Shown: one piece after another, positions 2,065 through 15,926 of the stretch
Position numbering within the stretch: the stretch's first letter is position 1
Layout: every line of letters begins with the position of its first letter
Origin: Oscillospiraceae bacterium
GTDB lineage: Bacteria > Bacillota > Clostridia > Oscillospirales > Oscillospiraceae
Length of the DNA: 64,000 bases
NCBI GenBank assembly: GCA_017406005.1
Contig: JAFQZI010000069.1
Coordinates: 86,176 to 150,175 of the forward strand
Reading direction: 5' to 3'
Translations under genes and position numbers: made by a program
Notes under the pieces: generated by a model
Databases searched by the model: none
The model's input: the letters and a program-made list of their open reading frames with translations, nothing else
What the model was told of the DNA's origin: nothing

Positions 2065-2090
2065 GTTAGTTCCTCCTATGAGTCATAGTA

Positions 2091-2119
2091 ACTCTACCAT
2101 AAAAAGCGGGCCTCTGCAA
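2091..2119 (-). promoter_or_regulatory. Promoter of the NRPS gene
   Basis: Read on the minus strand, TTGCAG (2119-2114), a 17-nt spacer and TAGAGT (2096-2091) form a sigma-A-like promoter about 27 nt upstream of the NRPS start codon. Confidence 0.5.
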
Positions 2120-2228
2120 GAATATCGTAAGTTTTTGCATGTTGAAAGCAAACAGGCCAAGGCGCAGAAAAACCCCTACAGCGGAGGGCTGCAGGGGGTG
2201 AGGATTGCGTTATCTGAATCAAGAATCT

Positions 2229-2332
2229 AAGGGACCTGTCCCCGTAACCCACATTTTCATATAAGCGGGAACTTTGCACTGAACACAGCTCCCGCTCTGC
2301 TTTCTGTGTCAGGAAAACCGTTCCCTTGACAT
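2229..2332. repeat. Intergenic hairpin repeat, copy A
   Basis: About 100 bp that recur, with small differences, at 4299-4442 and 5824-5963. In order: an ACCTGTCCC segment, ATTTTCATA, a hairpin (GCGGGAACT / AGCTCCCGC) and a TGTCAGGAAAACCG segment ending in TTGACA. Copy A lacks the leading GCCGGGAGAT hairpin seen in B and C. The layout resembles REP/BIME elements; no transposase for it is visible here. Confidence 0.8.
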
Positions 2333-2340
2333 ACAATATG

Positions 2341-2376
2341 CAGGAACGTGCGCAGGAACATACGCAGGAACTTGCA
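2341..2376 (+). repeat. Three 12-bp tandem repeats
   Basis: CAGGAACGTGCG, CAGGAACATACG and CAGGAACTTGCA follow one another directly upstream of, and partly inside, the fic promoter. They could be a regulator site or simple slippage. Confidence 0.6.
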
Positions 2377-2400
2377 ACCGGCACCAATCTGTGCTATGAT
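2372..2400 (+). promoter_or_regulatory. Promoter of the fic gene
   Basis: TTGCAA (2372-2377), a 17-nt spacer and TATGAT (2395-2400) lie 27 nt before the fic ATG. Confidence 0.6.
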
Positions 2401-2427
2401 CGTAGCCGGAAGAAAGAAGGGAATGAA

Positions 2428-3414
2428 ATGACAAATTATCGCCCGCCTTATGAAATCACAGAAAAATGCCTCAACCTTATCTCTTCTGTCTCGGAAAAGC
2501 TCGGCCGCCTGGATGTTACAAACTGCAGCACAAAACCCCGGCTGAGAAAGATCACCAGGATTCAGTCGGTATACTCTTCCCTGAAAATTGAAGCAAATTC
2601 CCTGCCGATCGACACGATCACAGCCATACTGAACGGCAGGGAAGTAATCGGCCCTGCGGAAGAGATCCGGGAAGCCGAAAATGCATTTCGGGCATATGAC
2701 AGGATTGCAGGTTTTGATCCGTTCCGGCTGCAGGATCTTTTGCAGATGCATGCCGTGCTTATGGACGGCCTTTGCTCGGATGCCGGAACATTCCGGAAAG
2801 GCCGGGAGGGTGTTTTCTCGGGAGATACCTGCATTTATATGGCGCCGGAGCCGGACGCTGTGCCTGGTCTGATGAGAGATCTTCTTGAATGGATGAACAT
2901 GGCCAGAGGATCGGTACATCCGGCCGTGATTGCCTGTGCAGCGCATTATGAGCTCGTGTTTATCCACCCCTTTTCGGATGGAAACGGAAGGCTTGCACGG
3001 TTATGGCAGATGGCAATTCTTTCTTCATGGAAACCGCTTTTCCGGTATGTGCCGATCGAAAACAGCATTCAGCAGCACCAGCAGGACTATTACGATGTCA
3101 TTGACCGCTGCAACCATGCGGAAACGATCACGGAGTTTATAGAATTTATCCTTGAAATGACAGATGATGCGCTGGCCGGTCTTCTGGAATTGTCCGGAAA
3201 GCAGGATGCCGTCACTGCCTGCGTACAGTGCCTGCTGGACGTGATGGGATACGAGACAGAATACTCCTCGACAGAACTCATGAGGCTGCTTCATCTCAAA
3301 TCAAGAGATACACTGCGGAACCACTATCTCCATCCCGCAATCAATGCCGGCCTGATCCGGATGAAACACCCGGATACTCCCTCCAGCAGGAACCAGCGCT
3401 ATATCCGAATCTGA
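2428..3414 (+). CDS. Fic family protein (Fido AMP-transferase, self-inhibited type)
   Basis: This 328-residue protein carries the Fic core motif HPFSDGNGRLAR (about residues 180-191), whose His and GNGR loop are the catalytic base and phosphate-binding loop for transfer of AMP from ATP to a target hydroxyl. Near residue 50, SSLKIEAN matches the (S/T)xxxE(G/N)-like inhibitory helix that blocks the ATP site; its position before the Fic motif fits class II Fic proteins. The C-terminus (about 270-328) looks like a winged helix. The ATG at 2428 is chosen over upstream starts because AGAAGG precedes it. The gene stands alone between repeat copy A and the phd-doc pair. The target is unknown; a regulatory role rather than a toxin is plausible given the built-in inhibitor. 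Confidence 0.88.
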   Translation: MTNYRPPYEITEKCLNLISSVSEKLGRLDVTNCSTKPRLRKITRIQSVYSSLKIEANSLPIDTITAILNGREVIGPAEEIREAENAFRAYDRIAGFDPFRLQDLLQMHAVLMDGLCSDAGTFRKGREGVFSGDTCIYMAPEPDAVPGLMRDLLEWMNMARGSVHPAVIACAAHYELVFIHPFSDGNGRLARLWQMAILSSWKPLFRYVPIENSIQQHQQDYYDVIDRCNHAETITEFIEFILEMTDDALAGLLELSGKQDAVTACVQCLLDVMGYETEYSSTELMRLLHLKSRDTLRNHYLHPAINAGLIRMKHPDTPSSRNQRYIRI

Positions 3415-3452
3415 AAACCCCGCCTCGATAGAGACAAGGTGAGGAATGGTTT

Positions 3453-3515
3453 ATGTCAGGAGAACCACCCCTGTGGCATACTTCCCCGCTATCTGGAAAA
3501 CCGCCCCTTGACATT
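3453..3515. repeat. Partial copy of the intergenic repeat (3' segment, twice)
   Basis: TGTCAGGAGAACC (3453 on) and GGAAAACCGCCCCTTGACAT (3495-3514) both match the last segment of copies A-C, so this looks like a decayed or duplicated end of the same element. Confidence 0.5.
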
Positions 3516-3558
3516 TATGGTATATAATCTCTCTCTGATTAAATATCTTAAAAATAGG

Positions 3559-3590
3559 TTGAAAATCACCTATAATATGATATACTATAT
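3559..3590 (+). promoter_or_regulatory. Promoter and AT-rich operator of phd-doc
   Basis: TTGAAA (3559-3564), a 16-nt spacer and TATACT (3581-3586) precede the antitoxin gene. CTATA and TATAG arms around the -10 give an imperfect palindrome, as expected where a Phd-type antitoxin represses its own operon. Confidence 0.5.
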
Positions 3591-3610
3591 AGTGGAGGTG
3601 ATTGAAGTTG

Positions 3611-3850
3611 ATGATCGATAGCAACGCTATTGTTACAGCAACAGAGGCAAACCAGAATTTTTCCAAGGTAGCAAAGACAGCCGAGAGAAAAGGCCATGTT
3701 GTTGTATTCAAAAACAACCGGCCGAAATTACTCGTAATAGATCTTGATACAGAACCCCAGATTGAAATGACAGAGGATGAAAAAATCCGGTTCGTTGCAG
3801 AACGTATTCTCCGGGAGCATAGAGCAGCTTTTGAGGAACTTGCAAAATGA
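3611..3850 (+). CDS. phd: Antitoxin, Phd/YefM family
   Basis: This 79-residue protein has the Phd/YefM N-terminal fold: ATEANQNFSKVAKTAE, then GHVVVFKNNRPKLLVID, which forms the DNA-binding dimer, followed by a charged C-terminal helix that would bind and cap the toxin. The ATG at 3611 is preferred to the TTG at 3602 because GGAGGTG (3594-3600) sits 10 nt before it and only 1 nt before the TTG. The stop overlaps the doc start (ATGA at 3847-3850), so the two are translationally coupled. In P1 phd-doc, the antitoxin neutralises Doc and represses the operon. Confidence 0.9.
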   Translation: MIDSNAIVTATEANQNFSKVAKTAERKGHVVVFKNNRPKLLVIDLDTEPQIEMTEDEKIRFVAERILREHRAAFEELAK

Positions 3851-4227
3851 TTATATTCTCAAAGGAAAAAGTGCTCCTGCTGCATAAAATTATGGCTGAA
3901 GCAACTGGAGGAAGCGTCGGGCTAAGAGATGAAGATCTTTTAGATTCTGCTTTGGAAAGTGCTTTTGCCGGATACGGAGACAAAGAGTTTTATCCTACGA
4001 AGGAAGAAAAGGGTGCCCGGCTGGGCTATACACTGATTTCTAACCATGCTTTTGTCGACGGGAACAAACGAATTGGGATGTATGTGATGCTCTCATTTCT
4101 TGAAATGAACGGTATCCGCATCAAATGCACAGATGAGGAGCTGGTTTATGCCGGGCTCTCCGTTGCGGATGGAAGCATGGGCTATGATGAGCTGCTGCAA
4201 TGGATCAGGGAACACGAAGGATTATAA
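3847..4227 (+). CDS. doc: Toxin Doc, Fic-fold kinase
   Basis: This 126-residue protein has HAFVDGNKR at residues 67-75, the Doc form of the Fic motif in which Lys replaces the second Gly (GNKR, not GNGR). P1 Doc, with the same motif at almost the same position, phosphorylates elongation factor Tu and stops translation. The length also matches P1 Doc. It overlaps the antitoxin gene by 4 bp. All motif residues are intact, so the toxin should be active. It is the second Fido-fold protein within 1.5 kb. Confidence 0.92.
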   Translation: MIIFSKEKVLLLHKIMAEATGGSVGLRDEDLLDSALESAFAGYGDKEFYPTKEEKGARLGYTLISNHAFVDGNKRIGMYVMLSFLEMNGIRIKCTDEELVYAGLSVADGSMGYDELLQWIREHEGL

Positions 4228-4298
4228 TTCTTTCTCAGAAGAATACTACCACATTGCACTTGTTACATCTACATTACTATTATGCCGGTAACAACAGA

Positions 4299-4442
4299 AG
4301 CCGGGAGATTTTCCGATCTCACGGCTCTGATTTTGAGGCAAGGAACCTGTCCCTGTGACTCGCATTTTCATAAAAGCGGGAACTGTGTACTGAACACAGC
4401 TCCCGCCCTGTTTTTATGTCAGGAAAACCGTCCTGCGGCATA
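4299..4442. repeat. Intergenic hairpin repeat, copy B
   Basis: A full copy: leading hairpin GCCGGGAGAT...ATCTCACGGC, then AAGGAACCTGTCCCTGTGACTC, the GCGGGAACTGTG / CACAGCTCCCGC hairpin followed by a T run, and TGTCAGGAAAACCGTCC. It sits between the convergent ends of doc and the ATPase gene and may also serve as their terminator. Confidence 0.8.
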
Positions 4443-4449
4443 AAGGGAG

Positions 4450-5706
4450 TCACATACCGAGGATACTGACGGGATAGGTGTATGCTTCTTCATTTACGGG
4501 ACGAATTCTGTCGCAGGTATCAATGATAAGGCCTCTCTGAATCTCCATATTGTATTTTTTTAATACGGAAAAGTTTTTCGTAGGATTTTTCGTAGACTCA
4601 CTCGTCTTGATCTCAATTGGATAAAGCCTCTCTCTCATGATGAACAAAACGTCGATTTCTTTTTGATCAATGTCCCTGTAATAGAACAGGGTTTCTTTCG
4701 GATCCCTGTTGTGCACATAGAAGTTTTTTACCAGTTCACTGACAACATAGGTTTCAAAAAAAGCACCGCTCATTACACCGTTCCGGAGCATTTCCGAATC
4801 CGGCCACTTGCACAGATAGGCACAGAGGCCGGTGTCCATGAAATACAACTTTGGTGTCTTGATAATTCTGTTTGAAAGATTTGCCATATACGGATACAAC
4901 AGAAACAGGAGTCCGGAAGTCTCCAGGATAGAAATCCATCTTTTGCAGGTTCGCACATCAATCCCGACGATGTTTGCAATTGTATCATAGCGCAGCTCCT
5001 GAGAAGTTCTCAAAGCGACAATAGACAGAAAATTACGAAACTGTAGCTCGCTGCCTGCCGAGATCAGTTTTCGAACATCCTTTTCTATATAGGTGCTGAC
5101 ATAGGATCTGAAATAGATCTCCCTCTCGGAAACACCCGTCACAATGTCGGGCATTCCACCCTGAAAAATGTCGTGGAAAACCTCCTGCCTTGTTCGATAG
5201 GCTCCTTCCAGGTTACGTTCTCTTTCCAATAATACGGAAATATCGGGATCAAAGAGTTCACCCCGCGCTTTGTACTTTTCTGCCTGTGACAGGGACGCCA
5301 TTTCTATGACTCCACAGCGGCCCGCCAGCGACTCTGATATGCCCTGCTGAAGCTCAAAACGGTTGGATCCGGTCAGAATATACATCAACTCACGTTTTTC
5401 CCCGTTTTTCATCCAAAGAAGCCGCTGTTCATCGATTTTCTTTTTTATTTCATCCAGCAGATTTGGCACTTTCTGGATTTCATCAATAACGAGTGGCCAT
5501 CCATATGTTTCAAGGAAGAGCTTAGGATTTTCAAGTGCAAGATTTCGATCATCCAGGTCATCCAATGTCACCTTGCGGTATCGGTCACCGAACAGATAGT
5601 CTACCGTAGTGGATTTCCCGACCTGGCGAGGGCCATATATTACGATACACGGGAACGATTGTGCGACCTGAAGGATCATTTTTTCTGAAAGCCTGTTAAT
5701 ATACAT
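4450..5706 (-). CDS. ATP-binding protein, AAA_14 / DUF4143 family
   Basis: This 418-residue protein has Walker A GPRQVGKST (about residues 24-32), Walker B PLVIDEIQKVP (about 73-83) and a sensor stretch YILTGSNRFEL. The C-terminal half carries a helix-turn-helix-like region and the DUF4143 restriction-endonuclease-like part, with PIEIKTSES in place of the usual catalytic E-x-K. The family is common and poorly understood; members sit near mobile or defence genes. The start is set at the second ATG (5706), as GGAGG touches the first ATG (5712) but is 6 nt from this one. The gene stands alone between repeat copies B and C. Confidence 0.88.
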   Translation of the reverse strand: MYINRLSEKMILQVAQSFPCIVIYGPRQVGKSTTVDYLFGDRYRKVTLDDLDDRNLALENPKLFLETYGWPLVIDEIQKVPNLLDEIKKKIDEQRLLWMKNGEKRELMYILTGSNRFELQQGISESLAGRCGVIEMASLSQAEKYKARGELFDPDISVLLERERNLEGAYRTRQEVFHDIFQGGMPDIVTGVSEREIYFRSYVSTYIEKDVRKLISAGSELQFRNFLSIVALRTSQELRYDTIANIVGIDVRTCKRWISILETSGLLFLLYPYMANLSNRIIKTPKLYFMDTGLCAYLCKWPDSEMLRNGVMSGAFFETYVVSELVKNFYVHNRDPKETLFYYRDIDQKEIDVLFIMRERLYPIEIKTSESTKNPTKNFSVLKKYNMEIQRGLIIDTCDRIRPVNEEAYTYPVSILGM

Positions 5707-5768
5707 CTTCATCCTCCACTCTAAATTTACGATGAAAACAGCATTCGAATGTATTTTTAATCGGAACT

Positions 5769-5797
5769 AATATAGCACAGAAGGAAAATATAATCAA
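5769..5797 (-). promoter_or_regulatory. Promoter of the AAA/DUF4143 gene
   Basis: On the minus strand, TTGATT (5797-5792), 17 nt and TATATT (5774-5769). Confidence 0.55.
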
Positions 5798-5823
5798 TAC
5801 CGAGCTGTATCCGAATTTGAATT

Positions 5824-5963
5824 CAGAGCCGGGAGATTTTACCGATCTCCCGGCTCCGATCTTGAGTCAAGGTACCTGTCCCTGTGACTCATAAAAGCGG
5901 GAACTGTGCACTGAACACAGCTCCCGCTCTGCTTTTTTGTCAGGAGAACCGTCCGTTTGACAT
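5824..5963. repeat. Intergenic hairpin repeat, copy C (most complete)
   Basis: The leading hairpin GAGCCGGGAGAT / ATCTCCCGGCTC (5824-5855) is nearly perfect. GAGTCA...TGACTC arms enclose the ACCTGTCCC segment (5864-5890). The main hairpin, AGCGGGAACTGTG (5896-5908) with CACAGCTCCCGCT (5916-5928), is followed by CTGCTTTTTT. The last hairpin is TGTCAGGA...TCCGTTTGACA (5939-5962). The T run means this copy could terminate transcription rightward. Confidence 0.85.
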
Positions 5964-5964
5964 A

Positions 5965-8900
5965 TTATCCTAAAATGGTGCCATTAACAGTAAGTGTATG
6001 GTCTGTTCCAAGTGTAAAGCCGTTATTATATATGGCCACAGAGTTATCTCCAGGCGTCCCTGTCTGAATCTGCTCTGCTGCGGCATCCGCCTGGGCAACC
6101 GCCGCGTCGGCACCCGCCTGGGCACCTGTGGCTTTCGAACCGCCGTTCTCTGGGCTTAAGTCGATGGACACCGGATGGGTGCCAGAAAAACCAAACGTAT
6201 AGTCGGGTTTATTCCCGCCAACCTGCTGTATGGTGTCATCCGGCTGGTCAACTGAATCCGCCTGGGCACCCGCGGCGGCACCCGGCCTGGCAGTTTTAGC
6301 GGCTGTCCCGAGGGTGGCAGCTGCTGCAGCGGCTGCAGCAGCGGCTGCAGCCGCTTCTTTCGCGCCGGCAGCTATCTCCTTGTCATAAGTTTCGGCATAA
6401 GTTTCGGCATAAGCTTTGGCATGATCATCGTCCAGACCGGCAGCTATCTGTGTGGCATAAGCATTGGCATATACATCGCCCTTACCGGCGTCTATCTTCT
6501 CGGCATATGCATTGGCATATACATCGCCCTTACCGTCAGCTATCTTATCGGCATATGCTTGGGCATAATCAATGCCCTTATTGTCTACATTATGCTTCTC
6601 GGCATATGCTTTGGCCCAAGCTGCTGCATAATCTTTTTCCTTACCTCTAGATATAAGAATCCCATACCAATTTATATAATCAACGCAATATTCATGAGAC
6701 TTACCATCTGCTCTCATATCAGCATATTTTTTGGCATTTTCTTCGTTTCTTCCCTCTTCTGCTTTGGCAAAAGCATAATAATCGGCATAATTTTCATCCT
6801 TACCTTCTGCTATCTGCGTGGCAAAAGCATTGGCATAATTTTCGGCTCTATCCATGAGCCAAGCGGCAGATATCTTCTTGGCATAAACATTGGCATAAGC
6901 TTTGGCATAAACATCGCTTTTACCGTTGGCTATCTGCTTGGTATAGGCATCGGCATAAGCTTCGGCAAATTCTTCACCTTTGATTTTATTCTTGTCATAA
7001 GCAGCTTGCCGGATTGCCTCCCTCACTGCCTTGTTGCTCTCGAGGGTGCCGAGGAGGACTACAAAGCCCAGGCCGGCGGCGTCCTTCGGGACAGGGATTT
7101 TGAGCACGCCGTATTCGGCGCACAAAACCCGCAGCACCGTGCCGTCGCTGAAGACGACGGTGTAGTAATTGTTCGCCCAGTATAAGTCATGTTTCGACGG
7201 GACGAGGATCTTATCCTCCTTCGCGTTGGCAAACGCGCCTTTGAAGTTCACCACGCCGCTGTCCAGCGTCTGGGCGTTCTCGCTGTCAAACGCGGCAGCG
7301 AAGATGGCATTACCCTTCTTCATGGCGGTGAGTGCTTCACCTGTCGGCAGGGCATCGACCACATCGTTCACTTTCTCGGTGCGTTTCTCGCCGCCGACGG
7401 TGCCCTCGACCACCAGGTCGGATTCTTTATTCTTTGGAGGCTGAACGTTGCCGTTGCCGTTTCCGTTGCCATTGCTGCCTCCGCCAACGCCTCCGCTATA
7501 ACTGACCACTGACACCTTGATGAGGCTTTCGGCTTTTTCGGCATTCGCGGGAATCGGGTTGTTGTTCTGTTCCTGATTCTGGTTCTGCTGCTGGTTCTGG
7601 TTGTTCTGTTCCTGATTCTGATTCTGGTTGTTCTGTTCCTGATTCTGGTTCTGGTTGTTCTGTTCCTGGTTCTGGTTATTCTGTTCCTGATTCTGATTGT
7701 TCTGTTCCTGGTTCTGGTTGTTCTGTTCCTGGTTCTGGTTGTTCTGTTCCTGATTCTGATTCTGGTTGTTCTGTTCCTGATTCTGGTTGTTCTGTTCCTG
7801 ATTCTGAGTCTGGTTGTTCTGGCTATTATTCTCGTTCTCGTTATTATCCTGAGGTTTATCTTTCAGCGTCACGGAGAGGTAAACCCCGCCGCCCTTCGGA
7901 ACGACGACATAGTAAGACCCGCTACCTTCATCCTGAATGAGTTCCAGCTCAACGCCTTCATCTCCGTAGGCTTTATCAACTTCAAAGCTGTCATCAGTGA
8001 CGTCTATTTTCAGATATACTTTGTCGTTTTCATGGGCATACTGATAAGTCTCTCCGCCAGCAGTCCCTGTTGCAAGATCCTTTTCCAAGGTTGCATCCTG
8101 TTTTGCGGAAAGGGTACCTGCATTTGTTCCGTCACTGTTATGGACATTGGTGTCCACTCTGATGATGTACTGGATGGAGGCATCCGTAAACGTCTTCGAC
8201 TCGCCGGCAGACGGTTCGGCAGCAATGGAAGTATCCGCAGCAATGCTGGTGGAACTTTCGGAAGTACTGACAGCGCCTGTGTTATAAGCGTTTTCAACAG
8301 TACCGGATGAGCCGCTTTCAATGACACCGCCCGTATTATAAGTGTTTTCGACGGTCCCGGATGTTCCGGCTTCATTGCCGTTGTCTCCACCTGCGGGCTG
8401 CACAAGCTTATAGTTCTCTGTCGGCGCATTGCCGTCAACTTCGATCTTCCAGACGGTCAGGTTCAGGTTGTCTTCCGTGACGTACTGATCCACCACCACG
8501 GCCTGCTGCCCGGCGGAGAGGGTTCCCTCAATCAGGATGTCGGTTATTCCGCTGCCACTGACGGAAATACCAGTATCTTTTGCCGTAACATCGCCGTAGA
8601 CCGCGATCTCTGTTTTATCTTCTGAATTGGTATTATTATTGACGACAATAGCCGTATCGCTGGCGTTCACATCACCGTCGACGGTGACATTTGTCTGACT
8701 TACGTTTTCTGCCTGGCTGGATGCGGCGTCGCCCTGCCCGGATGCGGCATCAGTGCCTTCCGTGACCTCCCCGAAGACGGCCTCTTCTATAACAGGGTTC
8801 AGTTCAATGCCTTTCGCAGCTTCCACATCACCGTTAACGGTCACGGTTGCCGTGCCGCCGTTGTTTTCTATAGCAATGCCGGTGCCCTCGGCTTTGACGG

Positions 8901-10251
8901 CAGGGGTCTCCGCGCTGCCTTCCGTGCCGGAAGCATCGCCGCCGGTGGATTCGGCTGCAGACGCTACATTTTCTGTCTGGACGCCGGAGCCTGCGGCTGT
9001 TTCTCCCGCGACGGTAGCTTCCCCTTCTGCGGCCGCGTCTGCCCCGGATGCATTATCCTGGCCGACGGTCACGTTCGCCGTTCCACCCTCGCTCACAGAT
9101 ACGTGGATACCGGTCGATCCTTCCCCGGATGCGCTGACGCTGTCGGCATTGACGGTTGCTTCGCCGCCGCCTTGTGCCGATGCAGAGGCACCTGTTGATT
9201 CTTTACCGGATGCGCTGACGCTGTCGGCATTGACGGTTGCTTCGCCGCCGCCTTCAGCTTTTGCATCTGCACCGACTGACCAATTGCCTTCTACACTGAC
9301 AGCGTCAGCATTGACAGTTGCTTCACCGCTGCCTTCGGCAATTGCGGATACACCTCTTGATTCACCACCGGATTCGCTGACATTGCCGGCGCTGACATTG
9401 CCGGCATTGACTTCCGTCTGCCCGCCGCCGGTCGCAGAGGCCTCCACGCCAGTGCCGGTGGCGTAGATATCGCCGCCCTGGAAACTGTCGCCGGTTCCGG
9501 TGCCGACGTTGACGGTTGTGGTGCTTCCTTCGCCGGTCGCAGATGCTTCCACACCCGTGCCGCCCACGGGGTTGTCAGATGAACCAACGTTTTCGGCATT
9601 GATGATTGTTGTGCCGCCGCCTTCAGAGGAAGCCAACACACCAGCGCCGGTTGCATTGATATCGCCGTTTACGTTGACGGTTGCCATGCTCGGGGGTGTA
9701 TTATCTAAGCCTCCATTGGATGTACTGACTTGAACCCCGGGTTTACTGTTTTCAGTCCCAGCCGTTACGCTCTCTACTGTTACGGTTATTTGATCATGCC
9801 CTTCAGATGCGTCAATCTTAACACCTTTATCGCCCGCCGTAACATCACCGGCTGTTAATTCAATGGTGTTCCGCCCGGTTTCACCGGAATCAACGGTAAT
9901 GTTTATACCACCTATACCGGATAAATTGGTTGTAATATCATTTGCCTCGACAGTAATGGATTCCCCGTTACCGGATATGATCTCGAGGCCGTTCCCACCA
10001 TCGCTAACTATATCCGCGTTTATGCTTACACTTGCAGGTGTATCACCATCTGCCGGGGTAACGGTGATAGGCCCACCATCGCCCACCAATTCTTCTGGTA
10101 CGACCTCCGGAACACCTCCAGCTGTAATCTCAACCCCGGTCGTAATTGTAGCCGAGCCCTCTGCCCAAACGGGGAGAGCCGTGAGGGAGGCTGCCATGCA
10201 GACGGCGAGGACGAGGGCCAGAAATCTGGCCGGGAAGCGGGTATTTTTCAT
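5965..10251 (-). CDS. Giant secreted repeat-rich protein (1428 aa)
   Basis: A signal peptide (residues 1-31, cleavage near VWA-EG) leads a protein of four compositional blocks. Residues 32-640 are rich in Gly, Ala, Ser and Thr with recurring ATVNADSVSASG-like strands, which suggests a stacked beta-helix. About 803-900 is almost pure Gln/Asn/Glu (NQNQEQNNQ repeats). About 900-1090 is a mixed globular part. About 1095-1295 holds 16-residue repeats of the type KGDVYANAYAEKIDAG, then a poly-Ala run near 1305 and a short tail. No sorting motif or membrane anchor is visible at the C-terminus, so how it stays at the surface is unknown. AAGGAGG is 7 nt before the ATG. I recognise no family; an adhesin or matrix protein is an inference. 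Confidence 0.85.
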   Translation of the reverse strand: MKNTRFPARFLALVLAVCMAASLTALPVWAEGSATITTGVEITAGGVPEVVPEELVGDGGPITVTPADGDTPASVSINADIVSDGGNGLEIISGNGESITVEANDITTNLSGIGGINITVDSGETGRNTIELTAGDVTAGDKGVKIDASEGHDQITVTVESVTAGTENSKPGVQVSTSNGGLDNTPPSMATVNVNGDINATGAGVLASSEGGGTTIINAENVGSSDNPVGGTGVEASATGEGSTTTVNVGTGTGDSFQGGDIYATGTGVEASATGGGQTEVNAGNVSAGNVSESGGESRGVSAIAEGSGEATVNADAVSVEGNWSVGADAKAEGGGEATVNADSVSASGKESTGASASAQGGGEATVNADSVSASGEGSTGIHVSVSEGGTANVTVGQDNASGADAAAEGEATVAGETAAGSGVQTENVASAAESTGGDASGTEGSAETPAVKAEGTGIAIENNGGTATVTVNGDVEAAKGIELNPVIEEAVFGEVTEGTDAASGQGDAASSQAENVSQTNVTVDGDVNASDTAIVVNNNTNSEDKTEIAVYGDVTAKDTGISVSGSGITDILIEGTLSAGQQAVVVDQYVTEDNLNLTVWKIEVDGNAPTENYKLVQPAGGDNGNEAGTSGTVENTYNTGGVIESGSSGTVENAYNTGAVSTSESSTSIAADTSIAAEPSAGESKTFTDASIQYIIRVDTNVHNSDGTNAGTLSAKQDATLEKDLATGTAGGETYQYAHENDKVYLKIDVTDDSFEVDKAYGDEGVELELIQDEGSGSYYVVVPKGGGVYLSVTLKDKPQDNNENENNSQNNQTQNQEQNNQNQEQNNQNQNQEQNNQNQEQNNQNQEQNNQNQEQNNQNQEQNNQNQNQEQNNQNQNQEQNNQNQQQNQNQEQNNNPIPANAEKAESLIKVSVVSYSGGVGGGSNGNGNGNGNVQPPKNKESDLVVEGTVGGEKRTEKVNDVVDALPTGEALTAMKKGNAIFAAAFDSENAQTLDSGVVNFKGAFANAKEDKILVPSKHDLYWANNYYTVVFSDGTVLRVLCAEYGVLKIPVPKDAAGLGFVVLLGTLESNKAVREAIRQAAYDKNKIKGEEFAEAYADAYTKQIANGKSDVYAKAYANVYAKKISAAWLMDRAENYANAFATQIAEGKDENYADYYAFAKAEEGRNEENAKKYADMRADGKSHEYCVDYINWYGILISRGKEKDYAAAWAKAYAEKHNVDNKGIDYAQAYADKIADGKGDVYANAYAEKIDAGKGDVYANAYATQIAAGLDDDHAKAYAETYAETYDKEIAAGAKEAAAAAAAAAAAAATLGTAAKTARPGAAAGAQADSVDQPDDTIQQVGGNKPDYTFGFSGTHPVSIDLSPENGGSKATGAQAGADAAVAQADAAAEQIQTGTPGDNSVAIYNNGFTLGTDHTLTVNGTILG
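7557..7845 (-). repeat. In-frame tandem repeat coding for the Gln/Asn-rich block
   Basis: Units built from TTCTGTTCCTGATTCTGG and TTG-containing variants repeat about a dozen times and keep the frame. The block is prone to slippage, so copy number may vary between strains. Confidence 0.85.
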
Positions 10252-10369: not shown

Positions 10370-10726
10370 TCACGATGACCGGCTTTCCGACATGAGGCGG
10401 GCGGAGGCGGCAGAGATGATGCGCACGAGGTCCTCCGCCGTATAGTCCCCCTTCTCGATCAGGGCAACCATTTCATCCGCCGTGCGGGAATTGCGGGCGT
10501 ACGACGGGACGCCGTTTTCATCATACGTCCAGCCCGTGAGCTCGGAGTACATGACGTTCAGCGCGTTGGCGAATTTGAGGATCTTGTCGGCCGGGAGATT
10601 CACCTTTCCGGCCTCGATTTTGGCTATAGATGTCCTGCTCGTATAGCCTGTCTTCTCGGCCAGCTCCTCCTGGGACATGCCCCGTTTGATGCGGTATTCT
10701 CGGATATTGCGGTAAAGGTCTTCCAT
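10370..10726 (-). CDS. XRE-family transcriptional regulator
   Basis: This 118-residue protein begins with an HTH_3 domain: IREYRIKRGMSQEELAEKTG, then SRTSIAKIEAGKVNLPADKILKFANALNV, a classic Cro/CI helix-turn-helix. The C-terminal half (about 70-118) is a short helical tail with no peptidase or sensor signature. The ATG at 10726 is preferred to longer frames because AAGGAGG lies about 9 nt before it. It is divergent from the PrimPol-helicase gene; the intergenic region carries three copies of a 15-bp palindrome, one over this gene's own -35. Self-repression and control of the replication gene is the natural reading. Confidence 0.9.
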   Translation of the reverse strand: MEDLYRNIREYRIKRGMSQEELAEKTGYTSRTSIAKIEAGKVNLPADKILKFANALNVMYSELTGWTYDENGVPSYARNSRTADEMVALIEKGDYTAEDLVRIISAASARLMSESRSS

Positions 10727-10756
10727 TCTCCGGCCCCTCCTTCTGTTGGTAAAAAC

Positions 10757-10785
10757 AGTATAACACAATAGTGAATTAAAATCAA
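10757..10785 (-). promoter_or_regulatory. Promoter of the XRE gene with overlapping operator
   Basis: Minus-strand TTGATT (10785-10780), 17 nt and TATACT (10762-10757). The operator GTGAATTAAAATCAA (10771-10785) covers the -35. Confidence 0.65.
10771..10785. promoter_or_regulatory. XRE operator copy 1
   Basis: GTGAATTAAAATCAA fits the palindromic pattern GTGAWTTnAAWTCAC with one mismatch at the last base. It lies on the -35 of the XRE promoter. Confidence 0.7.
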
Positions 10786-10811
10786 CAAAAAATAAAACTG
10801 ATGTCACTCTC

Positions 10812-10840
10812 TTGACAAATAATTTGAATTGTGGTAGGAT
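10812..10840 (+). promoter_or_regulatory. Promoter of the PrimPol-helicase gene
   Basis: TTGACA (10812-10817), 17 nt and TAGGAT (10835-10840). The predicted start point falls on operator copy 2. Confidence 0.7.
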
Positions 10841-10846
10841 ACGAGT

Positions 10847-10861
10847 GTGAATTAAAATCAC
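10847..10861. promoter_or_regulatory. XRE operator copy 2
   Basis: GTGAATTAAAATCAC sits at the predicted +1 of the PrimPol promoter, where a bound repressor would block transcription. Confidence 0.75.
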
Positions 10862-10896
10862 ATATTTGATTCGCAAAATTATTTATGCCCTATTAG

Positions 10897-10911
10897 GTGA
10901 TTTTTATTCAC
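10897..10911. promoter_or_regulatory. XRE operator copy 3 (inverted)
   Basis: GTGATTTTTATTCAC is the same palindrome in the opposite orientation, in the untranslated leader of the PrimPol gene. Confidence 0.7.
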
Positions 10912-10952
10912 GCATCGTTCACATCAGGAAAATATAATAAGGAGGTTTGCAT

Positions 10953-13292
10953 ATGATAAATGTGAATGAAAGGCATCTCGCCGAACTGAAGCAGCAGAAA
11001 ATCTGGCTGCTGTGGCGCAAGGAGACAAGAAAAAACAGCAAGGGCGAGGTGAGCCCGACCAAGGTTCCGATCAATGCCCACGGGGTACGGACAGGGACGG
11101 ATCCGGCCCATGCGGGGGACTGGATGACCTTCGACGAAGCTGTCTCGGCTTCCGGAGGGGTCACCTGCGCGGGGATCGGCTTCAAGATCCCGGACGGTGT
11201 CTTCTTTCTGGACATCGACCACCGTGACCTCGGGGATCCGCTCGTGAAGACGCTGCTGGAGCGCTTCGGCTCCTATGCGGAGAGATCGTGCAGCGGCAAC
11301 GGCTACCACATCTACGGCCGGTATGACCTGAAAGCGATCCCCGCGGAAGAGGGGAAGGACGGCAAAGTCAAACTGGCAAAAGAGTATTATCTCAAGAACC
11401 CGCACAACGGCATCGAGCTCTATTTCGGGGACCTGACCAACCGCTTCGCCGTCTTCACCGGTGACTGTGTGTACGATGCCCCGCTGAAGGACTGCACCGG
11501 AGCCCTGCTCACCACGCTGGAGAAGGAGATGCGCAGGGACGCCGCGAAGCCGGCTGCAGCAAAAAAGCAGCCCGCTTTCGGCAGTGAAACCGGAGAATTC
11601 CGCAAGCACCTTTCGGAAACCTGCGATGCCGACACCATCCGCTTCCTCAACAAGCTCTACAGCCAGAAAAACGGCGAGAAATTCCGAAGGCTGTTTGAAG
11701 AGGGGGACATCTCGGCCTACGGCTCCCAGTCGGAAGCGGACCTGGCGCTCTGCGGCATGATCGCCTTCCGCACCGGTGACGACCCGGGATCGATCGACCG
11801 GATCTTCCGCCTCTCCGCGCTGTACCGGGACAAATGGGAGCGTGAGGATTACCGGGAGAGCACCATCCGCCTTGCGATCGGCAGCTGCAACGGGCAGTTT
11901 CGCAAAACCAGCATTGTCCGGCCGTATTTCATCACCGAAAACGACCAGGGGGACGAAAAGGTCAGCCCTCCCCTGCTGGCCCAGTATGTGCGGGAGAACC
12001 TGCAATACATCATGGTGCGCTCCAGCGCGAGGGAGGAGCTGCTGATGTACGTCTATCGGGACGGCGTATACCGCCTCGCGGATGAAAAAATGTTCAGGGG
12101 CATCATCCGCTGCTTCATCGAGGACTATGATATGACGCTCGTCAGGGTGAGCACCCTGAAGGAAGTCTACGACCTTCTCCAGACCGACCTCAACACCGTC
12201 AGCATGGTCAGGCTCAACAGCCGCTGGGACCTGATCAATTTTGAAAACGGGCTCCTGCAGATCGGCAGCGGCAAGCCCGTTCTTCTCCCGCACAGCCCGG
12301 AGGTCTATTCCACCATCCGCATCCCCTGCCGGTGGCGGGAGGAGCCCGTCCCGACGCCGGTGTTTGACGGCTTTATGGAAACGCTCTGCAGCGGAGACGC
12401 GGAAGTCCGCCGGCTGCTGCTCGAATACATGGGCGCCGTGCTCTCCAACATCCCCGGCTACAAGATGAAAAAGGCCCTTTCCCTCGTCGGGGACGGGAAT
12501 ACGGGCAAATCCCGGCTGAAGCGCCTTGCCGAAAAGCTGCTCGGGGACGGCAACTACATGGGCATCGACCTTCGGGAACTGGAAAACCGCTTCGGCACCG
12601 GCAGGATCTACGACAAGCGCCTCGCGGGCTCTGCCGACCTCAGCTTCATGACGCTCGATGAGCTGTCCACCTTCAAAAAGCTGACCGGCGGGGACAGCAT
12701 CTTCGCCGAGGACAAGGGAAAGCAAGGCTTTGAATTCACCTTCTCCGGGCTTCTGTGGTTCTGCATGAACAAGCTTCCCCGGTTCGGCGGGGACAACGGG
12801 AAATGGGTATACGACAGGATCCTCACCGTGGAATGCACCAATGTCATCCCGCCGGAAAAGCAGGACAAGGATCTGGACGAAAAGCTCTATGCCGAGCGCG
12901 AGGGGATCGTGCAGCAGGCCGTTGCCGCACTGGGGAACGTCATCCGAAACGGGTATGCCTTTACGGAGCCCGCCTCCGTCATCCGCTGCCGCAGGACTTA
13001 CCGGGACGGAAACAACACGGTTTACAGCTTCTTCTATGACTGCATGTGCCGGAAAAGCGACCGCTACGATATCAACGAGGATTTTACCGTCACGGAGATC
13101 TACAAAACCTACAAGGAATACTGCAGGATCAACAACAACGGCTATGCCAAAACGCGCAAGGAATTTGATCTGGACCTCGCGGAGATCCTCTGCTGCACCC
13201 CCAAAGACCTGACGACGCGCCGGAACAACGGCATTGTCTATATCGATTACACCCTGACGCGGGAGGGCCGGGAAGCTTATTACCGGACCTGA
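10953..13292 (+). CDS. PrimPol-like primase/polymerase fused to SF3 helicase (phage/plasmid P4-type)
   Basis: This 779-residue protein has an N-terminal archaeo-eukaryotic-type primase: FFLDIDHRD (about residues 88-96) supplies the metal-binding Asp pair, and CSGNGYHIYGR (about 113-123) matches the (S)GxGxHxY nucleotide motif. A linker is followed by a D5-type region and an SF3 helicase with Walker A VGDGNTGKS (about 510-518), an acidic Walker B region near MTLDE, and motif C LLWFCMNKLP. A winged-helix-like tail (about 700-779) would contact DNA. Such proteins prime and unwind DNA at the origin of phages, satellites and plasmids. GGAGG is 7 nt before the ATG at 10953. Flanked by the XRE gene and a putative origin; no integrase, capsid or transfer gene is present nearby. 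Confidence 0.9.
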   Translation: MINVNERHLAELKQQKIWLLWRKETRKNSKGEVSPTKVPINAHGVRTGTDPAHAGDWMTFDEAVSASGGVTCAGIGFKIPDGVFFLDIDHRDLGDPLVKTLLERFGSYAERSCSGNGYHIYGRYDLKAIPAEEGKDGKVKLAKEYYLKNPHNGIELYFGDLTNRFAVFTGDCVYDAPLKDCTGALLTTLEKEMRRDAAKPAAAKKQPAFGSETGEFRKHLSETCDADTIRFLNKLYSQKNGEKFRRLFEEGDISAYGSQSEADLALCGMIAFRTGDDPGSIDRIFRLSALYRDKWEREDYRESTIRLAIGSCNGQFRKTSIVRPYFITENDQGDEKVSPPLLAQYVRENLQYIMVRSSAREELLMYVYRDGVYRLADEKMFRGIIRCFIEDYDMTLVRVSTLKEVYDLLQTDLNTVSMVRLNSRWDLINFENGLLQIGSGKPVLLPHSPEVYSTIRIPCRWREEPVPTPVFDGFMETLCSGDAEVRRLLLEYMGAVLSNIPGYKMKKALSLVGDGNTGKSRLKRLAEKLLGDGNYMGIDLRELENRFGTGRIYDKRLAGSADLSFMTLDELSTFKKLTGGDSIFAEDKGKQGFEFTFSGLLWFCMNKLPRFGGDNGKWVYDRILTVECTNVIPPEKQDKDLDEKLYAEREGIVQQAVAALGNVIRNGYAFTEPASVIRCRRTYRDGNNTVYSFFYDCMCRKSDRYDINEDFTVTEIYKTYKEYCRINNNGYAKTRKEFDLDLAEILCCTPKDLTTRRNNGIVYIDYTLTREGREAYYRT

Positions 13293-13307
13293 TTTTTTGC
13301 CCGATAT

Positions 13308-13322
13308 GTGAATTTAATTCAC
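13308..13322. promoter_or_regulatory. XRE operator copy 4 (perfect palindrome)
   Basis: GTGAATTTAATTCAC is a perfect palindrome 15 nt past the PrimPol stop codon, with no promoter to control. A downstream copy suggests a structural or origin role. Confidence 0.7.
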
Positions 13323-13513
13323 TTTTTGAGGCTGAAATTCACGCCGCACTACACGCGGCGCTGCGTCATCCTGACTCCCGGGATGGCCCCTTCGTGCAGA
13401 AAGTGGCGTGAATTTCAACTCCTTTGCGGAAAGAAAAGCAGGCATGGAAAAAACAGGAAACAGACCGGGCATGCTCTTACAGGGTATCACCAAAAACCTG
13501 CACTTTCTGCACG
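13308..13513. other. Candidate replication origin: nested inverted repeats
   Basis: Within 206 bp: the operator palindrome (13308-13322); a perfect 12-bp inverted repeat TGAAATTCACGC / GCGTGAATTTCA (13333-13344 and 13406-13417), whose arms contain the operator half site GTGAATT; a 6-bp hairpin CGCCGC / GCGGCG (13342-13360); and a perfect 13-bp inverted repeat CGTGCAGAAAGTG / CACTTTCTGCACG (13393-13405 and 13501-13513). No coding signal is convincing here. Confidence 0.5.
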
Positions 13514-13536
13514 CATGGCGGGAAAACTCTGAAAAT

Positions 13537-13571
13537 CACGGGGACAGGCAGATCGGAACCTGGCCCCGTGA
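13537..13571. repeat. GGGGACAGG-type palindrome
   Basis: TCACGGGGACAGG pairs with CCTGGCCCCGTGA around a 9-nt loop. It shares the ACCTG..CCC-GTGACTC theme with the intergenic repeats at 2.2-6 kb and may act as terminator for the alpha-galactosidase gene. Confidence 0.6.
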
Positions 13572-13574
13572 CTC

Positions 13575-15926
13575 TTATTTTTTCGTTTTCCTTACAAGTG
13601 CGGAAACTTTCTTTTTCTCTTCTTCTGCCGGGCGGATCAGGTAGAGATTGGAAAGAAAGTCTCCCTGGACGCGGAGGGATTCCCGATAACCGGCACCGCA
13701 GAACCGCTGGGCGAGCGGAACACCGGCAGCGAGCGCAGCCCCGGAACAGCGGAAGGCGTCCGATCCGTCATCCATCCGGCGGTGGTGGTCGGCTGCCCGG
13801 AGGACCAGCCCGTTCGGGTCGAGCTCAACGGGTGTAATGTGCTTGATCAGCCCGCCGAAGCGGCCGATGCGCAGCCCCTGCTGCCTGCTTTCGACCGTAT
13901 ACAGCCGATTCGGTGCAAGGGAAGCGGCGTACAGCCATTCATGCCCGGGAGATGCCGGAATCAGCTTATGGAACAGCGCCACCAGGCTTTCCTTTTCCCC
14001 CGTCACCTGCCAGGATACAGCCCCCTCCTCCGCGCGGTTACGGCGGAAAGTACCGAACTGCAGGGTCTTCCTGTGGGCAGTGAAATAAGCAATGGTCTTT
14101 TTCAGTTCCGCCTCCTCGACCGGCAGGAGATGCGCCAGATCAAATTCCAGGCCAAAGCATCCGAAAAAGGCCACATTGGCTCTTGTGGACATCGGCGTAA
14201 ACCGAAGTGTCTGCGCATGGGGGTCGGCAGAAATATGCGCTCCCACCGTGGACTGCGGATAGAGATAACTCAACCCGGTCTGGATGCCGATGCGTTCAAT
14301 GGGATCCGTATCATCGGAAGCCCAGATCTGCGGAGCAAAGCAGAGCATGCCGAGGTCAAAGCGGTTTCCGCCGGAGGCGCACCCCTCCAGCAGGATGGAC
14401 GGCCGCGGTTCAAAGATACGGCGAAGCACATCATACAGCCCGAGTACATAAGAATACGCCTTAGCCCCCAGTGCACTGGAATGGCGGTTCATATCCCACT
14501 TCACATAGTTGATTTCCGTGCTGTCGAGAATCCCAGTGACGGAAGATACGATATAATCCCGCACATCCGGGTTCGTGAGATCCAGCAGGTACTCGAATCT
14601 TCCCTGAAGGTTCCTCACGCCGGGCATGTGCAAAACCCACTCCGGATGTGCACGGTAGAGATCGGAATCTTCATTGATTGCCTCCGGCTCGAACCACAAA
14701 CCGAAATCAAGCCCCAGCGCATGGATCTTCTGGGAAAGCCCGTCAAGCCCGTTGGGGAGCTTTGTGCGGTTCACGGTATAATCCCCCAGCCCGGCGTGAT
14801 CGTCATTCCGCGCTCCGAACCAGCCGTCATCCAGCACAAAAAGCTCGCATCCCAGCTTCTTCGCCTTTTTTGCAAGGGAAAGCAGCTTGGCTTCATTGAA
14901 ATCGAACATGCAGCCTTCCCAGTCGTTATAAATAACGGGGCGCTCCCTGTAACGCCAGCATTCCGGTATAATATGGCTGTTGATAAACCGGTGCATTTTC
15001 TCGCTCAGACCATTAAAGCCTCGGTCAGAATAGCAGAGTACTGCCTCGGGGGTTTCCAGACAGGTTCCGTCTTCCACCTGCAGGAGCAGCTGGTTGTCGG
15101 AAATACCCTGCATGACCCTCGTCAGCCCCTGTTCACTGAGCTGAGCAGAGGAATAGTGGTTACCGGACCAGATCAGATTAAAGCCGTATGCTTCACCGGC
15201 ATCCTCATTGGTATCCGCCCGCGAAAGCAGAAAACCGGGGTTGGTGAAGTTAGAGGAAAAGCCCGTTGTGCTCTCATTCACCACACGTGAGCGCGTCACC
15301 TGTACACGGTGCGGATGCATTTCATCAATCCATGCTCCGCTGAAGGCTGTCATGTCAAAGCAGCCTTTGAGGTCGAGCATCGAACTCATCAGCTTTCTCA
15401 CCTGTACCGGTCTGCCGCTGTTGTTCCGAAAAACCGTTCGGCGGACGAGCGCTGTTTCATACAGGGAGAAATAGAGCGAAAGAGTCGTCTCCCCGCCAAG
15501 CAGGGAGGAAGCTGATGTAAAGGTCAGCTCCAGCGTCTCGCATGTTCCTTTTGCCGACGGGAGGGCACAGGCATAGGCAGGCGGCTCATCTAAAACCGCA
15601 AAGGAACGGTAGACGAAATCCGGCGCAATCGGTGTTCCTTCCGTCAGGAGCTCGATCGGAGATTCGCGGTAATCCCCCGTACCGGAAGCGCTCCAGGCCA
15701 GCGGCAGCGCATCGAGGGAAGAAGTTTGGTCATCGTTGTCATACAGAAGACTGCATCCCCACCCCGTTCCGAGTTTATAAGAAAGGGCCTCAGCATCTTC
15801 CGGTAAAAGCGGTGCGCCGAAGTGCAGCAGCTCTGCCTGAGAAAAGTGAATTCGGATGATACAGGAGAGAGTATCATTCCCGAGAAAGAATGCCGGATCA
15901 TTGCCGACAGAATACGCTCTGATCAT
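13575..15926 (-). CDS. Alpha-galactosidase, GH36
   Basis: This 783-residue enzyme matches GH36 alpha-galactosidases, which release alpha-1,6-linked galactose from melibiose, raffinose and related sugars. The nucleophile is the Asp in YVKWDMNRH (about residue 478) and the acid/base the Asp in SDDTDPIERI (about 540). VLDDGWFG and FGLWFEPEAI are the usual substrate-binding strands. An N-terminal beta-sandwich of about 330 residues precedes the barrel, as in the family; there is no signal peptide, so it acts in the cytoplasm. The tail is rich in Lys/Glu and slightly longer than typical (about 730). GGGAGG precedes the ATG. Divergent from the oligo-1,6-glucosidase gene, with a shared palindrome between. 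Confidence 0.93.
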   Translation of the reverse strand: MIRAYSVGNDPAFFLGNDTLSCIIRIHFSQAELLHFGAPLLPEDAEALSYKLGTGWGCSLLYDNDDQTSSLDALPLAWSASGTGDYRESPIELLTEGTPIAPDFVYRSFAVLDEPPAYACALPSAKGTCETLELTFTSASSLLGGETTLSLYFSLYETALVRRTVFRNNSGRPVQVRKLMSSMLDLKGCFDMTAFSGAWIDEMHPHRVQVTRSRVVNESTTGFSSNFTNPGFLLSRADTNEDAGEAYGFNLIWSGNHYSSAQLSEQGLTRVMQGISDNQLLLQVEDGTCLETPEAVLCYSDRGFNGLSEKMHRFINSHIIPECWRYRERPVIYNDWEGCMFDFNEAKLLSLAKKAKKLGCELFVLDDGWFGARNDDHAGLGDYTVNRTKLPNGLDGLSQKIHALGLDFGLWFEPEAINEDSDLYRAHPEWVLHMPGVRNLQGRFEYLLDLTNPDVRDYIVSSVTGILDSTEINYVKWDMNRHSSALGAKAYSYVLGLYDVLRRIFEPRPSILLEGCASGGNRFDLGMLCFAPQIWASDDTDPIERIGIQTGLSYLYPQSTVGAHISADPHAQTLRFTPMSTRANVAFFGCFGLEFDLAHLLPVEEAELKKTIAYFTAHRKTLQFGTFRRNRAEEGAVSWQVTGEKESLVALFHKLIPASPGHEWLYAASLAPNRLYTVESRQQGLRIGRFGGLIKHITPVELDPNGLVLRAADHHRRMDDGSDAFRCSGAALAAGVPLAQRFCGAGYRESLRVQGDFLSNLYLIRPAEEEKKKVSALVRKTKK

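Follow-up and report, generated by a model that had tools for sequence, protein, structure and literature searches.

Which kind of element is a 3.1-kb cassette that carries a repressor gene, a primase-helicase gene and four copies of one palindrome in the chromosome of an Oscillospiraceae bacterium? The cassette occupies positions 10370-13513 of a 64-kb stretch of contig JAFQZI010000069.1 (assembly GCA_017406005.1), which we call the window. An earlier sequence-only reading had proposed a minimal replicon, a satellite relying on a helper, or a domesticated module. Our analysis confirmed the cassette with its two genes, its four palindromes and an origin-like region, and supports treating repressor, primase-helicase and putative origin as one module. 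We consider it fairly likely that this module is the control and replication core of a satellite of the phage-inducible chromosomal island (PICI) or Staphylococcus aureus pathogenicity island (SaPI) type, lodged in the chromosome without mobility genes. Its unusual part is a predicted repressor operator inside the putative origin region.

A divergent repressor and primase-helicase pair with four palindromes

The XRE-type repressor gene starts at 10726 on the minus strand and the gene of the primase-helicase (Rep) at 10953 on the plus strand, with AGGAGG seven bases 5′ of the primase ATG. Four promoter-like sites were found, compared with 1.5 ± 1.6 in shuffled sequences, and the predicted promoters of the two divergent genes are given in Table 1. 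No peptidase domain was matched in the repressor. The palindrome GTGAWTTnAAWTCAC occurs, at up to two mismatches, only at the four cassette sites in the whole window; shuffled windows contained 0.77 matches on average, and four were reached in one of 100. Two copies are exact and two carry one mismatch, and, judged by the predicted promoters, they lie where the sequence-only reading had placed them. The organization has the divergent repressor typical of PICIs, XRE on one strand and primase on the other with palindromes between them, and repression of both genes is predicted.

The fourth palindrome is separated from the primase stop codon by 15 bases. Scored with a matrix built from the three promoter sites only, this site at 13308 reaches 25.3, the top value of the 64 kb, whereas the promoter sites score 25.3, 23.2 and 23.1 and the best site outside the cassette 12.2; no site in 20 shuffled windows scored as high. 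The shorter word GTGAATT occurs 11 times in the window; six of these copies, at 10771, 10847, 13308, 13316, 13336 and 13408, fall into non-coding stretches of the cassette.

The fused primase/Rep of PICIs is present as well (PF22763, PF19263 and TIGR01613), and the protein also matches phrog_1829 (E 3.5e-109). A profile of its 14-sequence family finds PDB 7ola, which we take to be the Rep of a staphylococcal island, as its best solved match (positions 2-718 of 758, E 2.3e-57), together with four other primase sequences, presumably of NrS-1. Invariant among the 14 aligned sequences are D87, D89, H119, G513-x4-G518-K519-S520, E570 and N606, which belong to the primase and helicase motifs. The GC content at third codon positions reaches 0.81 in the primase gene and 0.77 in the XRE gene, while 27 open reading frames (ORFs), the primase among them, average 0.62 (sd 0.07).

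Table 1. Features of the cassette in window coordinates
Feature	Position	Strand	Basis
XRE/Cro-type repressor, 118 aa	10370-10726	-	PF01381 (HTH_3), E 1.4e-15; PHROG transcriptional regulators
Predicted XRE promoter, TTGATT-17-TATACT	10757-10785	-	Promoter prediction
Operator 1 (one mismatch), covers XRE -35	10771-10785	.	Match to GTGAWTTnAAWTCAC
Predicted primase promoter, TTGACA-17-TAGGAT	10812-10840	+	Promoter prediction
Operator 2 (exact), at about +1 of primase	10847-10861	.	Match to GTGAWTTnAAWTCAC
Operator 3 (one mismatch), in primase leader	10897-10911	.	Match to GTGAWTTnAAWTCAC
PrimPol-SF3 (superfamily 3) helicase (Rep), 779 aa	10953-13292	+	PF22763, PF19263, TIGR01613
Operator 4 (exact), inside putative origin region	13308-13322	.	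Match to GTGAWTTnAAWTCAC; promoter-site matrix
13-bp perfect inverted repeat TGAAATTCACGCC / GGCGTGAATTTCA with two GTGAATT half-sites	13333-13417	.	
Putative origin core: iteron-like GTGCAG and GTGGCG, 22 and 13 nt 5′ of CAACTCC box	13394-13423	+	
Two inverted iteron-like units CTGCAC, CTGCAC (at 13498 and 13507)	13497-13513	-	

Origin-like arrays behind the primase gene of relatives

The sequence-only reading had described the fourth site as an operator after the stop codon. Its position is correct, but the region is not simply that of a post-stop operator, since in most relatives it is an iteron-type origin. Behind the primase genes of relatives lie repeated short units in both orientations, whose cores differ between loci (GTGACAG, GTAGCAG, GTGGCAG, GTGTAGG, GTGAAMG, GTGAATTTA and GTGAATG). 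Of 37 distinct relatives (about 31-57% identity; median coverage by repeated 10-mers 72 bp), 28 reach a coverage of at least 50 bp; the 37 are 42 loci minus five near-duplicates, with six same-genus regions (L230-L235) outside the count. Three relatives with 231-286 bp of coverage may hold simple repeats. As an imperfect control we used 180 regions that follow other ORFs at these loci, many of them coding; 8% reach 50 bp, and the coverage of relatives and controls differs with a Mann-Whitney p of 1e-13 (30 sequences, window included).

A TTTTCAACTTCTTGGC-like box could be anchored in 13 loci, with GT nine bases 5′ of it in all 13 and also 18 bases 5′ of it in 11 of them, although the anchoring itself favoured this spacing. 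In none of ten relatives tested do the iteron cores recur in the 1 kb upstream of the primase gene, except for the 6-mer AGTGAA in L029. The comparison shows that genes of this primase family are usually followed directly by an origin-like array, whose iterons vary from locus to locus and keep a near-fixed register.

A putative origin core in the window

In the window, repeated 10-mers cover 51 bp behind the primase gene, a value that one of 300 shuffles reached. The element GTGCAGAAAGTGGCGTGAATTTCAACTCC at 13394 has the spacing of the relatives, and the corresponding pattern GTG-6-GTG-7-TTT.AACTYC occurs once in 64 kb. Its first iteron-like unit begins 86 bases after the start of operator 4, and the second is overlapped by the right arm of the 13-bp inverted repeat. 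A profile of 11 relatives, from which the window was excluded, has its best match at 13396-13435 with an E value of 0.021, which exceeds the HMMER inclusion cut-off; the next match has 1.4. As single-stranded DNA, 13293-13575 folds better than 200 of 200 shuffles (z -5), a span that includes a hairpin at 13536-13571 beside the neighbouring GH36 gene. At 13394-13513 the window retains a putative origin core that is weak yet can be recognised.

Word sharing between promoter and origin was also considered as a mark of the window and rejected: the longest shared word is 11 bp (reached by 10 of 200 shuffles), yet it is also 11 bp in L156 (11 of 200), and 8-10 bp in nine other relatives.

Relatives and their satellite context

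Relatives of the primase were found at 18 loci in named genomes and at 53 and 62 loci on viral contigs, the latter mostly distant and partly overlapping sets. Counting the genome of the window itself, they occur in 11 of 394 genomes of the order (E 1e-40), 5 of 391 of the class (E 1e-100) and 12 of 102 of the genus (E 1e-20). We compared 25 loci of 40-57% identity with 22 reference proteins and found a recombinase in 20, a capsid in 17, an AlpA-like gene in 17 and XRE in 14, counts that are partly by construction, as the references were drawn from 11 of these loci; the four capsid references are PF05065. Primase relatives are often located in islands that resemble satellites. The five loci without recombinase are L097, L141, L142 and L155, which are pieces of 4.3-5.4 kb, and L030 (18 kb). 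AlpA and serine-recombinase matches are also present in L224-L226, with a capsid in two of them. L227-L229 come once more from the genomes that hold L027, L141 and L142.

The genus search added G084, G074, G063 and G090 at 48-56% identity, two of them (L232 and L233) cut by contig ends. The G084 locus (L230, 56%) is a satellite-like island with AlpA, a terminase small subunit, a capsid, two serine recombinases and a 162-bp array; that of G074 (L231, 48%) has XRE, AlpA and a tyrosine integrase and no array. Eight small elements, mostly from Clostridia (L026, L029, L031, L044, L097, L224, L226 and L230), combine primase and iteron array with a match to an HK97-type capsid; most also have a recombinase, and together they may form a separate satellite family. 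The related element L225, from a genome assembled as one contig, has no capsid match but a short recombinase match, with two minus-strand ORFs between; we read it as another eroding copy.

A plasmid origin was considered and rejected: matches to the primase occur in 246 plasmid and 1287 phage records, and among the 40 matches listed none with a coverage of 80% or more is above 28% identity. A 4.7-kb fragment labelled as phage has 52% identity over 79% of the primase.

Missing mobility genes and chromosomal setting

The sequence-only reading had noted the lack of integrase, capsid and relaxase genes. With tblastn, only XRE and the primase were matched by the 22 reference satellite proteins in window positions 1-30000. 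Within this range there was no match to eight recombinase references, to three AlpA-like references for an excisionase or to four capsid references, and the own capsid gene that marks capsid-forming PICIs was thus not found; a Pfam search of the main ORFs nearby gave neither an integrase nor a relaxase. A larger decayed prophage, which the sequence-only reading had set against its own proposal, was rejected, as no capsid, recombinase or AlpA match is present in the same 30 kb.

The cassette lies inside a 150-kb contig of a genome bin with 93% completeness and 6.6% contamination. It adjoins a GH36 gene that is found in eight sister genomes with 60-87% protein identity. The gene behind GH36 codes for an SNF2 helicase in G024 and G102 and is a different one in G068, and the pair was found at this locus in one genome; a fixed ancestral pair, another condition that the sequence-only reading had named against itself, was rejected on these grounds. 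The genes beyond SNF2 in G024 and G102 lie about 14.6 kb away in the window genome, and this stretch contains a nonribosomal peptide synthetase-like gene, two Fic-domain ORFs, an AAA_14/DUF4143 ATPase, a gene for a 1428-aa protein and the cassette.

In the variable part beside the cassette (window 1-10251), PADLOC matched one Fic-domain ORF to SoFic (E 1.7e-36) and the ATPase to the candidate PDC-S01 (E 6e-94). Contigs C143, C39, C160 and C171 of G000 each carry distant primase-helicase and SNF2-type helicase matches, possibly prophage replication genes.

Comparison with known elements

PICIs have a divergent repressor, a fused primase-Rep and, immediately 3′ of rep, an origin with two iteron sets around an AT-rich melting region (PMC6092414). 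The window has this order with a putative origin, but it has no int, xis or terS match, the outer right iterons are not seen, the middle is not AT-rich, and a repressor-type palindrome lies inside the origin region. In SaPI1, palindromic Stl operators cover both -35 regions (PMC9638917), and the window resembles SaPI1 and SaPIbov1 in that palindromic operators overlap divergent promoters. For SaPIbov1, similar Stl sites are reported only at the stl, str and xis promoters (PMC4936726), whereas the window has a full site in its origin region. The capsid-encoding satellites of Clostridia (L026, L029, L031, L044, L224 and L230) have a primase about 50-56% identical to that of the window and the same post-primase origin layout; they differ by AlpA, recombinase and capsid matches. 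In the plasmid pRN1, a repressor, a PrimPol-SF3 replication protein and an origin just downstream form a 3.1-kb minimal replicon, similar in size and content to the cassette, but this plasmid is archaeal, its origin is a stem-loop rather than iterons, and repressor and Rep share one operon (PMC4234260).

The cassette resembles a working PICI replication and control core, and its descent from a PICI is probable. It is not classed among the PICIs, as searches for an integrase and an excisionase found neither. It is probably an immobile satellite core, and probably a remnant.

Alternative explanations

Several observations weigh against the satellite-core interpretation and its operators. The expectation that related gene pairs elsewhere share the palindrome failed: it is absent in 12 of 13 relative loci, with one unlike site in L029, and was not found at up to two mismatches in the six same-genus regions. 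The repressor is only generally helix-turn-helix-like relative to the XREs of primase relatives, and XRE matches occur in 78 of 102 genomes of the genus. Nine of the 37 relatives lack a strong array, with L032, L045 and L153 scoring 0. Besides the E value of the origin profile, the AT content of the 60 bp that follow the box is 53% in the window compared with 62-82% in 13 relatives, and the outer right iteron block was not seen in the window's origin region. No direct repeat of at least 9 bp connects the immediate flanks, and the exact borders were not located.

A last such point comes from G067 and G112, two species of the same genus, which share a stand-alone repressor/Rep pair at a common locus (L234, 4366-9960, and L235, 4722-10320), followed by the same MatE gene. 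Here the repressor is of the S24-peptidase type, lies next to an ImpB/MucB-type polymerase gene and is divergent to a 674-aa Rep that is 46% identical to the window primase over the helicase, and no recombinase, AlpA or capsid match occurs within 18 kb. Between the two genomes, Rep is 98.5% and the repressor 97.5% identical, with dN/dS values of 0.17 and 0.10, which argues that such pairs can be kept and do not merely decay. This agrees with a domesticated module, in which the host would retain repressor and Rep at a constant site to its own benefit, for instance as immunity to related satellites, as do the open reading frames of XRE and primase and the intact motif residues. Yet the G067/G112 pair has a different repressor and an N-terminal Rep part without PF22763 match, and the window pair occupies its locus in a single genome with other genes behind GH36 elsewhere. 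PADLOC returned no family for the primase and only control-protein, helix-turn-helix and similar models at low scores for XRE, and a known anti-phage defence system was rejected accordingly. Domestication thus appears unlikely to us. Repeated 10-mers behind Rep cover only 36 and 12 bp in L234 and L235, and GTGCAC words are present 3′ of Rep in both.

The palindromes could instead be iterons bound by Rep, which would autoregulate its own promoter while XRE binds elsewhere; the GTGAATTTA and GTGAATG iterons of the L029 and L034 origins would fit. As the iteron cores of the relatives do not recur upstream of the primase gene, apart from the 6-mer mentioned above, and the iteron register of the window holds GTGCAG and GTGGCG, we regard this explanation as rather improbable. 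More doubtful still is a complete minimal element whose integration and movement depend on a recombinase of the host or of a helper. Repressor, Rep and origin core are present, and pRN1 provides a precedent, but the genome has one copy and the flanks lack the direct repeat, with isolated 11-bp and 10-bp matches to the more distant flank. A free form of the minimal replicon that the sequence-only reading had offered is not supported, as the cassette is embedded in the contig beside GH36 with neither integrase match nor flanking repeat. Comparison with the relatives narrows its remaining options to a PICI/SaPI-type core, so that its interpretation was borne out in part.

A possible double lock

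For the satellite core that we favour, we propose the following mechanism, in which the assignment of proteins to sites and the activity of the origin are what we infer from the DNA. XRE would occupy the three intergenic palindromes and silence both divergent promoters. Upon its relief, Rep would be produced, bind the iterons right 3′ of its own gene, melt the DNA and prime replication there. Through the operator within the origin region, the repressor would also hinder origin firing directly. Such direct control is plausible and unusual, because the iteron cores of relatives are not found upstream of the primase gene and the Stl sites of SaPIbov1 are reported only at promoters. A full-text literature search, judged mostly from abstract openings and with sparse coverage of subscription journals, found no satellite repressor that binds its own origin. 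That one repressor blocks a satellite replicon both at its promoters and at its origin, through an identical operator among the Rep iterons, is a tentative idea that we think may well turn out otherwise.

The near-fixed iteron register would allow the origins of many unnamed satellites to be placed from sequence, and the stand-alone repressor/Rep pairs of sister species prompt one to ask if cores of this kind are retained by their hosts. With a predicted repressor operator in its origin region, the cassette is a compact case in which the silencing of a satellite replication core in a chromosome can be tested. If the double lock is true, such a core could stay silent in the chromosome after the loss of its mobility genes.

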